A program made the translations under genes and the position numbers. This document shows positions 5,255 through 62,714 of a DNA stretch of 64,000 nucleotides, one piece after another (the stretch's first letter is position 1; each line of letters starts with the position of its first letter). Source of the stretch: Humisphaera borealis (GTDB lineage: Bacteria > Planctomycetota > Phycisphaerae > Tepidisphaerales > Tepidisphaeraceae); NCBI RefSeq assembly GCF_015169395.1, contig NZ_CP063458.1, positions 1,860,001 to 1,924,000 on the forward strand. Direction: 5' to 3'. The notes under the pieces were generated by a model that did not search any database, had not been told where the DNA came from, and saw only the letters and a list, made by a program, of their open reading frames with translations.

Positions 5255-5265
5255 CGAACGGCCCC

Positions 5266-5381
5266 GTCAGTGACACGGGCTTCCAGCCCGCGCTGGCGAT
5301 GCAGTAGTAGAAGAGACTTGGATACGCGAATCATCTTTACGCCAACGTCGCACGCACGGGCGGGAAGCCCGTGTCACTGAC
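5266..5381. repeat. Paired-hairpin (BIME-like) element, family A
   Basis: Two 25-nt arms (5266-5290 and 5357-5381) are inverted copies matching at 24 of 25 positions, around a 66-nt loop. Each arm contains its own hairpin, for example CGGGCTTCCAGCCCG. The element fills most of the gap between the cytochrome gene and the DUF1501 gene. The same arm sequence recurs at 10888-11040. Confidence 0.85.
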
Positions 5382-5410
5382 AGAGCGGCTGGCATAATCG
5401 CAGTGCAAGC

Positions 5411-8625: not shown

Positions 8626-8718
8626 GGTGCCACGGGTCGGCGGTACTCCGCAGACCCGCGCCAAACGGCGACCCACGCACCCTCACGGGACTGCCGAGTA
8701 CGACCGACCCGTGGCACC
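8626..8718. repeat. Paired-hairpin element, family D, single copy
   Basis: The left arm starts GGTGCCACGGGTCGGCGG at 8626 and the right arm ends at 8718 with the complement. About 25 of 28 outer positions pair. The left arm itself folds as CACGGGTC ... AGACCCG with a GCGGTACTCCGC tip. The same arm is found twice in each of the composite arrays at 41.7 and 53.7 kb. It lies between ybaB and the PilZ gene. Confidence 0.8.
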
Positions 8719-10883: not shown

Positions 10884-10887
10884 TAAT

Positions 10888-11040
10888 CAGTGACACGGGC
10901 TTCCGGCCCGTGCGCGCGACGTGGTCGTCGAAAGTTCCCCATACCCCGAAAACCACCTCTTTTTTGCGAAAAAGATAAGACGGTGCGAACGGCTCTTGGC
11001 CCGTCGCGTCGCCAGCACGGGCTGGAAGCCCGTGTCACTG
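10888..11040. repeat. Paired-hairpin element, family A, second copy
   Basis: Inverted arms 10888-10913 and 11015-11040 match at 25 of 26 positions and share the CAGTGACACGGGCTTCC core with the element at 5266-5381. The loop (101 nt) is unrelated to the loop of the first copy. It lies between the convergent radical SAM and ABC ATPase genes, so it may also act as a bidirectional transcription stop. Confidence 0.85.
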
Positions 11041-11065
11041 ACTGAACGTCTACCCGGCGCGGAAT

Positions 11066-11829: not shown

Positions 11830-11918
11830 GGGTGGCATGGGCGAGCGTAGTCGCCTGCCCGTGGTGACCGTCGCCAGTGTTCGCCACGGGCAAACGAGTA
11901 CGCTTGCCCATGCCACCC
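11830..11918. repeat. Paired-hairpin element, family E
   Basis: Arms of 35 nt (11830-11864 and 11884-11918) are inverted copies at 31 of 35 positions. Each arm starts GGGTGGCATGGGC and ends TGCCCGTGG, folding on itself around a GTA-containing tip. It fills the gap between the glycosyltransferase and ABC ATPase genes. Related elements are at 14998, 23883, 38392 and 58165. Confidence 0.85.
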
Positions 11919-38391: not shown

Positions 38392-38484
38392 GGGTGCCAT
38401 GGGCTGATGTACTCATCTGCCCGTGGCGTGTTCCTGCGGTAAAATGGAACCACGGGCAGCGGCGTACCGCAGCCCATGGCACCC
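38392..38484. repeat. Paired-hairpin element, family E
   Basis: The 35-nt arms (38392-38426 and 38450-38484) agree at 30 positions. The five differences fall in the inner stem: GATGTACTCATC in one arm and GCGGTACGCCGC in the other, both still able to pair. It lies between the convergent DUF1552 and RNase R genes. Confidence 0.85.
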
Positions 38485-41016: not shown

Positions 41017-42167
41017 GTGAAAAGTTCCGGGGGCACGACGCGTCGGCGCGACGCTCGCAACGTGCCGGGGGTCTGGCCTCCGATCCCGGGTGCACAGCAC
41101 CCGGCGTGCGGATGTCGATTGCTCAGTAGCGAGCCACCGTGGCAGAAGTGTAATTCGTCCGCCCCCGGGCGGACAGGTTCCTTATGGAATCGAGACAATT
41201 GTCGCGGGTGTTCGCCCGAGGAATCGGACTGAAACTAACACTCGCTACGCCGATGTCTGAGCGAACTCGCCAAGACCCGGATGGACGGTGCCGCCCTTGC
41301 CATGTTTACGGTCCGGGCGTCTACGCTCACAGACCTTCAAATTCGTCTCAACGAGACGACCAGGGGCAAGCACCATTAAAACCGAAGGGAGCGAAGCGGG
41401 AGGGCGGTCGAAGGCGGGACACGAACTCTGCGGATCTTCCTCAGGTGGTTTAATAGTATGTTCGGTCGGTCCGGATTGCAACTGAAGCGGCAATTCTCTG
41501 GAATGGGTTGAGTTTTACGGGGCTGACTGGCGAGTGGGCTAAGATTCTGTTTGGCGATCTTCGTCGTTGACATCCCGGCTGCTACACCTAAAATATTACG
41601 AACACAAGGCCGGCGGGTGTTGCGCGCGCGGAGGATCCCGCCTCGGGTTCGTTCGGCGATGTCGTGTTGGTTCGTTCGGCAGACTGTTTCGGGTTCGTTC
41701 GGCGGAGTCGCGCCGGGTTCGTTCGGCAGCCCGCTACGATCTGGTGCCACGGCGTCGGCGGTACTCCGGAGACCCGTGCTATCGGCCGCACCTTGCGCAC
41801 GGGTCTGCGGCGTACCGCCGACCCGTGGCACCGCAACCGCCTCGGGTTCGTTCGGCAGTGTCGGGTTCGTTCGGCGAAGTCGCGCCGGGTTCGTTCGGCA
41901 GACCGCTACGATCTGGTGCCACGGCGTCGCCGGTACTCCGGAGACCCGTGCTATCGGCCGCACCTTGCGCACGGGTCTGCGGCGTACCGCCGACCCGTGG
42001 CACCGAACCGTCTCGGGTTCGTTCGGCGACGTTGAGTTTGTTCGGCACTCTCGGGTTCGTTAGGCCGGGCCGCCTCGGGTTCGTTCGGCAAAATGCTTGC
42101 CGAACGGCCGCCATCGTTGCATGCTACGGCGTCGCCGCTCGACCGACCGCCTGTACAGGAGAACGCC
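41017..42167. other. Long intergenic region between divergent genes, right half a repeat array
   Basis: The region holds promoters for rnr (minus) and the lipoprotein gene (plus). From 41101 to about 41630 no coding sequence, RNA gene or clear repeat was recognised; several short open frames there have no ribosome site or recognisable family. From 41645 to 42090 it holds a composite repeat array described separately. Confidence 0.45.
41645..42090. repeat. Composite repeat array 1: 11 GGGTTCGTTCGGC units and two paired-hairpin elements
   Basis: The 13-mer GGGTTCGTTCGGC starts at 41645, 41691, 41715, 41844, 41863, 41887, 42015 and 42078 (exact), with degenerate copies at 41668, 42034 and 42053; spacing is 19-25 bases within runs. 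Two family D paired-hairpin elements interrupt the runs at 41743-41832 and 41915-42004. The stretches 41691-41862 and 41863-42033 are near-identical tandem copies of about 172 bases. There is no supported coding sequence. The array ends 78 bases before the lipoprotein start. Confidence 0.9.
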
Positions 42168-43195: not shown

Positions 43196-43381
43196 TGTCA
43201 TCCTGAGCTGAGCGCGTGCGACCTTTGAAGGTGAGCTTTGAAGGAGCCGCGCACGAAGTGTACTCACGCAGTAAGCGGGAACTGCGACGTTTCGAGGTCC
43301 ATTCCCGCTTACTTCGTGAGTACACTTCGTGCGCGGCTCCTTGAAGAATCACACGAGCGACGCGCCGCTTAGGATGACAAC
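43196..43381. repeat. Nested palindromes, family C outer arms with a long inner hairpin
   Basis: The outer arms begin TTGTCATCCTGAGC at about 43196 and end near 43381 with a diverged complement (CTTAGGATGACAA). Inside lies a second palindrome with 41-nt arms (43241-43281 and 43302-43342) matching at 40 of 41 positions around a 20-nt loop. The inner arm includes CGCACGAAGTGTACTCACG. It fills the gap between the convergent lipoprotein and ribokinase genes. Confidence 0.85.
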
Positions 43382-52573: not shown

Positions 52574-53581
52574 ATGAATGAATGGTACCTCATCGAAAAC
52601 GGGCAGAGCGTTGGCCCGATAACCCTCGACGCGCTGGTTGCCAGGCTTCCGGCGGCCGGCGGGCCCCAGGCGATGGTCTACGGCCCGGGCATGACCAACT
52701 GGTCCGCGGCGGCTCAGGTACCTGCCGTGGCGTCTCGCATGGGCGGGTTCCGCAGCGCTCCCGGTGCTCCGCCGTTGCCGCCCGGCGCCGGCCGACGGGC
52801 CGACGTCATCGACTACGAGATCTTCGGCAACGAGATGCAGTACGTCGAAGTCACCCTCGACCCCGGCGAGATGGCGCTCGCCGAGCCCGGCGGCATGATG
52901 TTCATGGAGCCCGGAATCGTCATGCAAACCGTCTTCGGCGATCCCTCGGCTCCACAGCAGCAGGGGTTCCTCGGCAAACTCATGACCGCCGGCAAACGCA
53001 TGGTCACCGGCGAATCGCTGTTCATGTCCACCTTCACCAACCAGGGCCACGGCCGCCAGAAGATCGCGTTTGCCGCGCCTTATCCCGGCAAAATCATCCC
53101 GATCCATCTCGAACAGCACCAGGGTGAACTGATCTGTCAGAAAGACTCCTTCCTCGCCGCCGCCCGCGGCGTTTCAATCGCGATCGCGTTCCAGAAGAAA
53201 ATCGGCGTCGCCCTCTTCGGCGGCGAAGGGTTCATCATGCAGCGCCTCACCGGCGAAGGGATCGCTCTGCTCCACGCCGGCGGCACCATCATGGAACGAG
53301 TCCTCCAGCCCGGCGAAACCCTTCGCGTCGATACCGGCTGCATTGTCGCGATGCAGCGAAGCGTCCAGTACGACATCCAGTTCACCGGCGGCTTCAAGAA
53401 CTCCCTTTTCGGCGGCGAAGGACTCTTTCTGGCCACCGTCACCGGCCCGGGTAAGGTGTGGCTGCAATCGCTGCCCTTCGCCCGCCTCGCCGGCCGCGTC
53501 CTGGCCAATGCCTCCGGCCGAGGGAAAGACGAGGGGAGCGTCCTCGGAAACCTTGGCGGGTTCCTGGGAAACAGCGACTGA
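52574..53581 (+). CDS. GYF_2-AIM24 (TIGR00266) fusion protein
   Basis: A 335-residue protein. The first ~55 residues (WYLIENGQSVGPITLDALVA ... NWSAAA) are a GYF_2-type domain, common in bacterial membrane or proline-binding proteins. The rest, from YEIFGNEMQYVEVTLDPGEM to FARLAGRVLANA, is an AIM24/DUF124 (TIGR00266) domain, a jelly-roll or cupin-like fold of unknown function related to the yeast mitochondrial protein Aim24. No signal peptide is seen. It is followed by the composite repeat array 2. Confidence 0.88.
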   Translation: MNEWYLIENGQSVGPITLDALVARLPAAGGPQAMVYGPGMTNWSAAAQVPAVASRMGGFRSAPGAPPLPPGAGRRADVIDYEIFGNEMQYVEVTLDPGEMALAEPGGMMFMEPGIVMQTVFGDPSAPQQQGFLGKLMTAGKRMVTGESLFMSTFTNQGHGRQKIAFAAPYPGKIIPIHLEQHQGELICQKDSFLAAARGVSIAIAFQKKIGVALFGGEGFIMQRLTGEGIALLHAGGTIMERVLQPGETLRVDTGCIVAMQRSVQYDIQFTGGFKNSLFGGEGLFLATVTGPGKVWLQSLPFARLAGRVLANASGRGKDEGSVLGNLGGFLGNSD

Positions 53582-53599: not shown

Positions 53600-53987
53600 G
53601 CCGAACGAACCCGAGGCGTTTCGCCGAACGAACCCGAGAACGTCCGGTGCCACGGGTCGGCGGTACTCCGCAGACCCGTGCGCGCACACGGCCAATACCA
53701 CGGGTCTCCGGAGTACCGGCGACGCCGTGGCACCAGGTGGTACCGCTCCGCCAAACGAACCCGACTTCGCCAAACGAACCCGACAACGTCCAATGCCATG
53801 GGTCGGCGGCACCCCGCAGACCCGTGGCACCGGACGCGGCCGACGGCACGGGTCTCCGGAGTACTGGCGACGCCGTGGCACCAGGTGGTGCCGCTCCGCC
53901 AAACGAACCCGACTTCGCCAAACGAACCCGGCGCGGTTCCGCCAAACGAACCCGGCAACGTCCGGTGCCGCTCCGCCGAACGAACCC
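53600..53987. repeat. Composite repeat array 2: 8 GCC(G/A)AACGAACCC units and two paired-hairpin elements
   Basis: The 13-mer GCCGAACGAACCC (complement of the array 1 unit) starts at 53600, 53623 and 53975; its variant GCCAAACGAACCC starts at 53750, 53769, 53898, 53917 and 53941. Two family D elements lie at 53646-53734 and 53792-53882. The block joining them (13-mer, short spacer with GACTTC, 13-mer, hairpin element) is the inverse of the block at 41863-41950 in array 1. It begins 19 bases after the AIM24 stop codon. Confidence 0.9.
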
Positions 53988-54209
53988 GACGCCGTTTTGC
54001 CGCATCTGCCGGCTCGGGGCGGGGACGCAATACACGATCTCTCGAGCCGATCGCAGGCGATCGCACGAGGGGGTGCCGAGGCGAACGCGACTTTTCTCCG
54101 GCGCGACACATCTACCGCGGACGGATCACACCCATCCTCGATCGATCGCCGGTGAGCCACGACAGGCGCATCGCCAGCCCGATTTAGTTCGGTATATGTT
54201 AAGTTGCGG

Positions 54210-54235
54210 CCGCAAAAATGCAACCGCAAAAATGC
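54210..54235. promoter_or_regulatory. Direct repeat CCGCAAAAATGC upstream of dapA
   Basis: The 12-mer CCGCAAAAATGC occurs twice with a 14-bp period, 150-180 bases before dapA, followed by a partly complementary GCATTTCGGCC. It could be an operator or part of a leader structure, but no known riboswitch pattern was recognised. Confidence 0.3.
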
Positions 54236-54387: not shown

Positions 54388-55248
54388 ATGTTCAGCGGTG
54401 CGATGACTGCGTTGGTGACCCCCTTTCGTGAAGGCCGGCTCGATGAAGCCCGCCTTAAGGAACAGGTCGAGCACCAGATCAAAGGCGGCATCGACGGGCT
54501 GGTTCCGGTGGGGACCACCGGCGAGTCACCCACGGTTGACTTCGAGGAGCATGCCCGTGTCATCGAACTGACGGTCGAGTTCGCCAACGGCCGGGTTCCG
54601 GTCGTCGCCGGCACCGGCGGCAACGCGACGGCGGAGGCGATCGAACTCCACCAGATCGCCAAGAAGGCCGGCTGCCAGGGGTGCCTGTCCGTCAACCCCT
54701 ACTACAACAAGCCGACCCAGGAAGGCCTGTACCGGCACTTCATGACGCTAGCCGACCGCGTCGACCTGCCGATCGTCCTCTACAACATCCCCGGCCGAAC
54801 CGGCATCACCATGTCGCCGCAGACGGTGGCTCGGCTCAACGCCCACAAGAACATCGTTGCGATCAAAGAGGCGACCGGCTCGCTCGACATGGCGACCGAA
54901 ATCCTGTCGCTGTGCGACATCACGCTCGTCAGCGGTGACGACTCGCTGACGCTGCCGCTCATGAGCGTCGGTGGCAAGGGCGTGATCAGCGTGGCAAGCA
55001 ACCTCATCCCTGCCGAGATCAAGAAGCTGGTCAAGCTCGCCGCCGACGGCAAGTACGCCGAAGCGGCGAAGCAGCACATCCGGCTGTTCCCGTTCATTAA
55101 GAGCCTGTTCCTCGACGGCAACCCCGCCGGCATCAAGTACGCGATGAGCCTGGCGAACATGGACACCGGCGAGCTCCGCCTGCCGTTGTGGGAGGCGAGC
55201 GAGGCGACCAAGCAGACGATCGCCGCGGAGATGAAGAAGCTGATGTGA
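54388..55248 (+). CDS. dapA: 4-hydroxy-tetrahydrodipicolinate synthase
   Basis: A 286-residue TIM-barrel lyase that condenses pyruvate with aspartate semialdehyde, the first step of the lysine/diaminopimelate branch. All key residues are present: GTTGES (Thr43-Thr44), LYNIPGR with Tyr132 and Arg137, and the Schiff-base Lys160 in VAIKEATGSLD. GGAGA lies a few bases before the ATG. It is followed by the aroDE fusion gene in the same direction with a paired-hairpin element filling the gap. The related families (N-acetylneuraminate lyase, 2-keto-3-deoxygluconate aldolase) lack this exact combination. Confidence 0.93.
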   Translation: MFSGAMTALVTPFREGRLDEARLKEQVEHQIKGGIDGLVPVGTTGESPTVDFEEHARVIELTVEFANGRVPVVAGTGGNATAEAIELHQIAKKAGCQGCLSVNPYYNKPTQEGLYRHFMTLADRVDLPIVLYNIPGRTGITMSPQTVARLNAHKNIVAIKEATGSLDMATEILSLCDITLVSGDDSLTLPLMSVGGKGVISVASNLIPAEIKKLVKLAADGKYAEAAKQHIRLFPFIKSLFLDGNPAGIKYAMSLANMDTGELRLPLWEASEATKQTIAAEMKKLM

Positions 55249-58110: not shown

Positions 58111-58164
58111 GAAAGTCGTCGACTCGCGATGCTAGTGCGCTGCCATAGCCACCATTTGGGATTA

Positions 58165-58258
58165 GGGTGCCATGGGCTGGCGTACTCGCCTGCCCGTGGC
58201 TTGCCTCGTCTGGCGTCGCCCCGCCACGGGCAGCGGAGCACCGCAGCCCATGGCACCC
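58165..58258. repeat. Paired-hairpin element, family E
   Basis: Arms 58165-58199 and 58224-58258 (35 nt) start GGGTGCCATGGGCTG and agree except in the inner stem, where GGCGTACTCGCC in one arm corresponds to GCGGTGCTCCGC in the other; both can pair. It sits 18 bases after the stop of the isomerase-like gene. Confidence 0.85.
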
Positions 58259-58276
58259 AAATAGTCGCTCGGCTCT

Positions 58277-61436: not shown

Positions 61437-62714
61437 ATGAATCGCTTTGCACATCTGCCGGTCGCCGAGACGCTCGAGTCCCGCCGGTTCATGGACGCGA
61501 CGCTGGTCGGTGGTGAACTCCTCATTACCGGTACCGAAGCGAAAGACACGATCACAGTCTCGCTCGACGCGAACGACCCGGAACAGCTCTCGGTCAAGGT
61601 CAACAAGACCACCTACCAGTTCCCGCTCGCCGAGGTCGACACGATCAGCATTGAAGCCCTGGGCGGCAACGACAAGGTCGTCGTACTCGGGAACCAGGGC
61701 GCGATTTACACCAGCGTCAAAGTAGAAGGCGGCTCCGGCAACGACGTCATTACGGGTGGGACCGGCAATGACATGCTCGTCGGCGGCGACGGCAATGACA
61801 CCATCAACGGCGGCGACGGCGATGACTTTCTGTTCGGGGACGCCGGCAACGACAAGCTCACCGGCGGCAGCGCCAACGACTACGTCGACGGCGGCAATGG
61901 CAACGACAGCCTGACCGGCGGACTGAACGACGACACGCTCCTGGCCGGCGACGGCAAGGACAAGCTCGACGCCGGGACCGGCGACGACAACGTTGACGGC
62001 GGCACCGGGAAGGACGCCATAAAGACCGGCACCGGCGAAGATGCGATCGCCGAGGACTCCACCAACCTGAAGGAAGTCAAAGACCGCGGCGACGCTGATG
62101 CCGACTACACCCTCGGTGAACTCACCGAGGAACTCTCCGAACTGCACGAAATGGTCGTCCCCGGCAGCACGGTCTTCCGCTGCGAACTTGCCGACGGCCT
62201 CATGACGCTCTACTACCGCTTCGGCGAGGACCCGACGGCTTATAAGACGGTGCTGGACGTGAGTAATGTAGCCGACGGCGCCCCGCTGAGGGACAACGTC
62301 AATCTCGTCAGCCGCGAAGTGAGCACTTCAGAACTGCGCGACTCGGCCGTCGCGGTGTTCAACGCCCGAGTGCCGAACCTGGGCATCCTGTCGTTCAAGT
62401 CGGTCGGCAATGGCTACTCCGGAACGCTGGGGGAAGGCGCCGAGGAGATTCGCTACCGCGACATCTACGGAACGATTCAACTGATGTCGACCGACGATAT
62501 CGTCTGGACGCTCGACGAGGCGGAGGAAGACCTGGACAACGACGGCATCTTCGATAACTACGGCCAGCAGAACGAGGGCGGCATCCCTCTCGACCCGTCG
62601 TGGACGCCCTTCCCGTCCGGCGACGGACGGACGCTCTATCAGGACTTGCAGGGCAACTGGTTCGAGCCGGGGAATGACGGACTGTTCTACCCGCATTTCA
62701 GCGGCGGGCAGTAA
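61437..62714 (+). CDS. RTX-type calcium-binding surface protein with LEPR-like N-terminal motif
   Basis: A 425-residue protein. The N-terminus (AHLPVAETLESRRFMDATLV) resembles the LEPRxLLSA-type motif at the start of many planctomycete surface proteins. Residues ~95-205 hold about ten GGxGxDxhx nonapeptide repeats of the haemolysin type (GGTGNDMLVGGDGNDTINGG, GGDGDDFLFGDAGNDKLTGG), which bind calcium in a beta-roll. The C-terminal part is globular and unrelated to known domains; it contains LDNDGIFDNYGQQ. The frame extends to 61212, but ATG 61437 with GGAGA before it gives the motif at the right place. It is probably secreted. Confidence 0.82.
   Translation: MNRFAHLPVAETLESRRFMDATLVGGELLITGTEAKDTITVSLDANDPEQLSVKVNKTTYQFPLAEVDTISIEALGGNDKVVVLGNQGAIYTSVKVEGGSGNDVITGGTGNDMLVGGDGNDTINGGDGDDFLFGDAGNDKLTGGSANDYVDGGNGNDSLTGGLNDDTLLAGDGKDKLDAGTGDDNVDGGTGKDAIKTGTGEDAIAEDSTNLKEVKDRGDADADYTLGELTEELSELHEMVVPGSTVFRCELADGLMTLYYRFGEDPTAYKTVLDVSNVADGAPLRDNVNLVSREVSTSELRDSAVAVFNARVPNLGILSFKSVGNGYSGTLGEGAEEIRYRDIYGTIQLMSTDDIVWTLDEAEEDLDNDGIFDNYGQQNEGGIPLDPSWTPFPSGDGRTLYQDLQGNWFEPGNDGLFYPHFSGGQ

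Follow-up and report, generated by a model that had tools for sequence, protein, structure and literature searches.

Array 2 of the 64-kb stretch of Humisphaera borealis DNA analysed here (hereafter the window) lies at positions 53600-53987 on the minus strand and belongs to a genome-wide family of promoter-headed, oriented 13-mer arrays, the existence of which is well supported. On balance, we favour the view, drawn from sequence comparison, that this family amounts to about 90 promoter-driven, lineage-specific repeat units, which would be non-autonomous relatives of a gene-bearing element, the 13-mer being the site of that element's protein. In sequence, each unit comprises 13-mers in one orientation, interspersed with palindromic or other cassettes and preceded by a sigma-70-like promoter and then a leader of about 50-460 nt. 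In this case a candidate trans-acting protein family can be named along with the repeat and its promoter, and to our knowledge most bacterial interspersed repeats have no known driver.

Array 2 contains eight 13-mers, counted as GCCGAACGAACCC or one-mismatch forms, which read GGGTTCGTTCGGC or GGGTTCGTTTGGC in the sense of transcription and start at 53600, 53623, 53750, 53769, 53898, 53917, 53941 and 53975. Their spacers measure 6, 10, 11 or 21 nt, or about 114 to 116 nt. Two copies of a two-hairpin palindromic cassette, C1, which also exists by itself at other places in the genome, are positioned at 53646-53734 and 53792-53882. On the same strand, a leader (53988-54195) connects the first 13-mer to a candidate sigma-70-like promoter of type P2 (54196-54223), with a -35 box TTGCAT (54218-54223), 16 nt and a -10 box TAACAT (54196-54201). 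The array is flanked on the left by a gene with AIM24 and GYF_2 domains (52574-53581, plus strand), convergent with array transcription and ending 18 nt before the array, and on the right by a gene of the dihydrodipicolinate synthase family (54388-55248, plus strand), divergent from the array promoter. Array 1 (41645-42089, plus strand) has the opposite orientation and holds eleven 13-mers (starts at 41645, 41668, 41691, 41715, 41844, 41863, 41887, 42015, 42034, 42053 and 42077) with two C1 copies (41743-41832 and 41915-42004). Its candidate sigma-70-like promoter (41567-41594, plus strand) is P3-like with a match of 0.79, and consists of TTGACA (41567-41572), 16 nt and TAAAAT (41589-41594). 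No tRNA, tmRNA or known RNA family was found in the 64-kb window.

The exact 13-mer GGGTTCGTTCGGC occurs 367 times in the 7,189,892-base genome (217 forward, 150 reverse), and the reversed, uncomplemented control does not occur at all. A 14-mer allowed one mismatch gives 288 and 211 copies, versus 3 and 3 for its control. A survey of 80 stretches around listed 13-mer copies, together with the two window arrays, yielded 96 groups comprising 532 units at up to two mismatches; groups hold 1-11 units, and 82 of them hold at least three. In any one array, all 13-mers have the same orientation, and the sole stretch with both signs, L056, corresponds to two separate arrays. Among the short spacers, lengths of 11 nt (122 cases) and 6 nt (39 cases) predominate. 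Among the 216 spacers of at least 25 nt, many fall into families common to several arrays, the largest having 55 and 45 copies, each in 34 arrays, and 59 are singletons. An upstream promoter, short repeats of one orientation and cassettes that can be exchanged between them could evoke a CRISPR-like or integron-like cassette array. We consider this reading extremely improbable in view of the 13-bp repeats, the 6- and 11-nt spacers, the number of arrays (about 90) and the recurrence of cassettes between arrays; an Rfam search, a weak test here, gave no attC-like match. Unlike the unique, uniform, repeat-length spacers of CRISPR, those of the arrays range from 5 to 362 nt and form families common to several arrays.

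Analysis of the flanks showed that AT-rich words are strongly over-represented on one side of the arrays. These words resolve to a sigma-70-like promoter, with a TTG-type -35 box, 16-17 nt and a TAACAT or TACAAT -10 box, and the motif is accompanied by a conserved start region. With a promoter called at a match of at least 0.75 within 500 nt of an array, 60 of 82 arrays have one on the right side and facing the array; the other choices of side and direction give 2, 1 and 0 of 82. The remaining 22 have no promoter within 500 nt, and some of these are cut by an IS element. Conversely, genome-wide scans with the promoter motifs returned 69 sites (29 + 40). A same-sense 13-mer is located within 1450 nt downstream in 67 of them and upstream in none; for random positions in the same stretches, an exact 13-mer was found downstream in 586 of 2000. 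In a blind check of 12 promoter sites without an array sampled downstream, ten had an array, one (L148) precedes a gene that itself carries 13-mers further downstream, and one (L150) had neither array nor gene. The arrays lie downstream of a conserved promoter and are probably transcription units. Base composition follows the same polarity: G exceeds C on the transcript strand in all 62 non-coding units with a promoter, the median composition of this strand is rich in G and T, its median skew is 0.13 as against 0.03 in flanks, and local GC skew in the analysed stretches follows array orientation, which confounds any replication-strand bias. For the gene beyond the promoter, divergent orientation predominates (48 to 26; p 0.014 in a two-sided binomial test). 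On the far side of the arrays, at a median distance of 112 nt, gene strand is random (37 to 36).

A promoter specific to the arrays, structured cassettes and a mostly intergenic placement would also suit RNAs that serve the host as regulators or as multi-site sponges and are kept for the benefit of the cell. As to placement, 76 of the 82 arrays are not mostly within a predicted gene, genes being called for this purpose with a simple codon-usage script rather than a standard gene finder. As to structure, the whole array 2 transcript folds better than shuffles (z -5.05), but its leader and its 13-mers alone fold no better than shuffles, so that the fold is explained by the palindromes. In addition, 13-mer doublets occur in 1 of 392 sampled phylum genomes, array content is highly variable and the left-gene orientation is random, as given above. 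Overall, a role as host RNA seems unlikely to us. A hairpin in the array 2 leader (54117-54139, minus strand) exposes a GTGTGAT loop (54125-54131) that is exact in 35 of 80 leaders, or 38 when one variant loop is counted. Its pairing control was marginal: with 28 distinct sequences out of the 38 leaders, changes on both sides were reached in 294 of 500 shuffles and the covariation score in 9 of 500. We therefore do not retain this hairpin as a proven RNA structure.

Ten units contain an intact gene of 313-449 codons, placed between promoter and 13-mers or overlapping the 13-mers. Gene-bearing units and non-coding arrays have both promoter and 13-mer in common. The encoded protein is conserved and uncharacterised, of the NAxKSTGPxTxEGKAxxRxNAxKHGL type; its NALKHGL-like motif is, we presume, one known from unannotated proteins. 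In all ten close gene copies, GGGTTCGTTCG is found at the 3' end, in frame 1 in six copies, where it reads VRSA, and in frame 2 in four, where it reads GSFG. The dN/dS ratio is below 0.5 in all 44 usable gene pairs (of 45; dS below 1.5) and is about 0.06-0.17 for close pairs. Taken together, the dN/dS values and the two frames of the motif indicate that the protein is under purifying selection and that the motif is conserved as nucleic acid. Retention of the motif regardless of frame, and of strand in a relative from the Isosphaeraceae described below, argues that the 13-mer is a nucleic-acid site acted on by the family protein, which we regard as its most likely role. The diverged copy L194 has no 13-mer motif.

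Database searches at E <= 10 returned no family in Pfam and NCBIfam for two representatives from this genome, and none in PHROGs for the one searched there. Representative A1 had no match among PDB sequences, and two relatives from the Isosphaeraceae metagenome-assembled genome (MAG) had no Pfam family. L194 gave one Pfam match below threshold (17 bits for a cut-off of 27). No confirmed relative of the protein was found in viral contigs and none among phage records, and plasmids gave two weak matches, judged by neighbouring annotation; on these grounds, a viral or plasmid origin of the protein was set aside.

Distribution was surveyed for both the 13-mer and the protein family. The exact 13-mer is present at most once per genome in the 60 other relatives searched, with 0 copies in the one same-genus genome among them (65% complete). 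Across 392 sampled phylum genomes, 11-mer doublets were found in one, Humisphaera borealis itself. Three stretches of viral contigs also have 11-mer doublets; they look like unrelated tandem repeats and were discarded as relatives. A match to the protein family was detected in 17 of 294 phylum genomes, with more than one match in Humisphaera borealis alone, with at most 13 candidates scored per genome. Near the family gene, 15 of the 16 other genomes lack GAACGAACC; the exception is L170, where one GGTTCGTTC occurs in another context. Literature searches with 13-mer strings gave chance matches only, and those with motif peptides and planctomycete repeats nothing relevant. In PMC11266412, the word "repeat" occurs 0 times and Humisphaera appears in two passages.

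A scan of a named genome collection for 13-mer doublets retrieved nine stretches, and a single Isosphaeraceae MAG accounts for four of these. This MAG, picked solely by its 13-mer doublets, contains 23 matches to the protein family, 22 of them at E <= 1e-3. Genes of this MAG carry GCCGAACGAACCC on the coding strand, where it reads PNEP; copy L212 has such a site and shows repeated PNEP at its end. Three GCCGAACGAACCC sites are present in family-like C-termini on each of the contigs L031, L036 and L038, and GAACGAACCC lies about 200-260 nt past the stop at loci L224 and L228. The motif is on the coding strand in the MAG and in the reverse orientation in Humisphaera borealis (G000). It was found in only 3 of the 20 family loci examined in the MAG, and UBA8133, which a 13-mer doublet likewise brought up, gave no match to the family. 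Since motif and family are also linked in this second planctomycete, a distant one, binding of the protein to the 13-mer and array movement caused by it can be put to a direct test. Tentatively, and as a possibility that we would not call probable, the whole might represent a new class of two-part selfish element in the Planctomycetota. Its protein would recognise a 13-bp DNA motif that its gene carries at the 3' end, whatever the frame or strand, and about 90 non-coding, promoter-driven satellite arrays would spread in trans and trade palindromic cassettes.

The boundaries of the units bear on their origin. When units are aligned in pairs, their homology in many cases sets in about 26-46 nt upstream of the -10 motif, the flanks being unrelated, and in most of the gene-bearing units compared it does so at AGATTCTTCTTG. 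Such a sharp start would fit a unit that is moved or copied, but also a constraint on the promoter. Neither a target-site duplication nor an empty site was found for the units. Alone among non-coding leaders, that of L081 clearly resembles the leaders of gene-bearing units; the leader of L095 has a 29-nt match to them. As only the L081 leader is clearly alike, descent of the arrays from a gene-bearing unit is not proved. The gene to the left of array 2 has close homologues in G006 and G012, where the other neighbours of array 2 are absent from the flanks examined. Under the reading that we favour, the non-coding arrays would most likely be non-autonomous relatives of the gene-bearing element that have spread through the chromosome.

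One may instead invoke neutral local expansion of 13-mers and REP-like palindromes through slippage, gene conversion and RAYT transposition, the promoter being incidental. The genome does contain 11 Y1/RAYT-type (Y1_Tnp) matches, C1-type palindromes stand alone, with no exact 13-mer nearby, in all eight stretches checked, and units can be locally homogenised, as in array 2. These points are outweighed in our opinion by the specificity of the promoter for correctly oriented arrays (67 of 69 sites), by the sharp common start of the units at the promoter and by the association, in two distant lineages, with a single gene family, which make an expansion of this type quite unlikely. Eight of the 11 RAYT loci were checked: one has a C1 palindrome nearby, one a C0 palindrome and none a 13-mer, and for C1 this frequency (2 of 8 for C1 and C0 together) is close to chance. 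At L137 (G000:C1 2122411-2122704), a RAYT-type gene is situated about 1 kb from a C1 palindrome; it is a possible driver of this palindrome, a proximity close to chance expectation.

The cassettes themselves are reminiscent of REP/BIME sequences with their RAYT proteins, as described in PMC2817692, since the array palindromes C1, C0 and C4 are REP-like and multi-copy, C1 also occurring alone. REP units are imperfect palindromes of 20-40 bp, whereas the 13-mer GCCGAACGAACCC is not self-complementary and the inserted cassettes are. Moreover, BIME units alternate, whereas the 13-mers have one orientation per array and are coupled to a promoter. The palindromic cassettes are REP-like repeats that would have been captured and then copied between arrays, in line with their occurrence alone. 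Separately, at least five arrays (L051, L097, L103, L110 and L128) are split by what appears to be the insertion of an IS-like element with a transposase, each time at an identical position within a single type of cassette.

The relation between the two window arrays can be assessed within this family. The initial annotation, which saw in array 2 an inverted, diverged relative of array 1, is borne out: with array 1 reversed, its alignment to array 2 reaches 76.6% over 384 nt (E 4e-78), units, spacers and palindromes included. Since this alignment takes in spacers and linkers, the similarity exceeds that of arrays assembled independently from the same short repeats, and chance assembly is ruled out by the alignment together with the genome-wide excess of the 13-mer. 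Inverted arms are formed by 41886-41960 with 53689-53763 (89% complementary over 75 nt) and by 41967-42029 with 53621-53683 (94% over 63 nt). The change said to be common to five of the eight array 2 13-mers is confirmed as well: these five are GCCAAACGAACCC, with the same G-to-A change. Growth of array 2 from a variant of its own, also proposed, holds as far as local homogenisation of one variant is concerned. The variant (GCCAAAC) is however not private to array 2, because it is found in 59 of the 82 arrays with at least three units. It represents 101 of 532 units, and makes up at least half of the units in array 2 and likewise in 12 other arrays.

The two arrays had further been presented as inviting inversion of the DNA between them. 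That they form a special pair is not supported: they are two members of a family of about 90 arrays. In the inversion scenario, recombination between the two as inverted repeats would turn round the intervening 11.6 kb. They are indeed opposite in orientation, their arms are 77-94% similar and their longest common exact stretch is 38 nt. Nevertheless, array 2 shares at least 38 nt exactly, and up to 42 nt, with 11 of 100 other analysed stretches, so that the same argument is equally valid for many pairs. Among analysed stretches, the best match of array 1 is not array 2, which comes next, but L060 (80% over 392 nt). Array 2 has array 1 as its best match, with L059, L060 and L064 close behind; these three and L069 match it at 75-81% over 260-389 nt. 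By blastn, the leaders of the two arrays are unrelated; that of array 2 has L127 as its nearest relative, and that of array 1 has no other match among the analysed stretches. In addition, no recombinase was linked to the pair in this analysis, and arrays of both orientations are found around the chromosome. Known invertible segments combine dedicated inverted repeats with a recombinase; here inverted repeats exist, but they are not unique to the pair. Support for an inversion is thus limited to the existence of inverted repeats, and we judge it very improbable. As a specific claim on arrays 1 and 2, it was abandoned. A simpler reading takes each array to run outward from the promoter that heads it: the two would be opposed since their units sit in opposite orientation, without a demonstrated inversion. 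More generally, paired repeat arrays seen in raw sequence call for a comparison with the whole genome before they are taken for inversion sites.

Two other types of repeat deserve comparison with this family. BOX elements are modular, with a central module in variable number, and number about 100 copies. In Streptococcus pneumoniae they are species-limited interspersed repeats, some large copies of which have expressed ORFs, and are judged parasitic, according to the abstract of PMC3049150. In their architecture, the arrays resemble BOX by being mostly intergenic (76 of 82), lineage-limited (1 of 392) and variable in module number (1-11 units). They differ from BOX in repeating a 13-mer, in having their own conserved promoter and diverse cassettes, and in sharing promoter and repeat with a separate gene for a conserved protein. 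Rickettsia palindromic elements are repeats found inside coding sequence in several frames. The 13-mer likewise lies inside coding sequence in different frames; unlike these elements, it is a 13-bp, non-palindromic motif, confined here to non-coding arrays and, within genes, to the 3' ends of a single family.

Other repeats were noted in the window. A lone C1 two-hairpin palindrome, without 13-mers, is present at 8626-8718. One palindromic repeat family, of GGGTGCCATGGGC type, occupies 11830-11918, 38392-38484 and 58161-58262; another, of GTCAGTGACACGGGCTTCC type, is found at 5261-5386 and 10887-11042 and is also a common array cassette. An inverted repeat with 51-nt arms (GGAGCCGCGCACGAAGT..AAGCGGG) spans 43231-43352, and a similar hairpin sits in the leaders of L152, L153, L155 and L159. 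Finally, 27-nt tandem repeats extend from 61763 to 62008 and presumably resemble glycine/aspartate-rich calcium-binding repeats.
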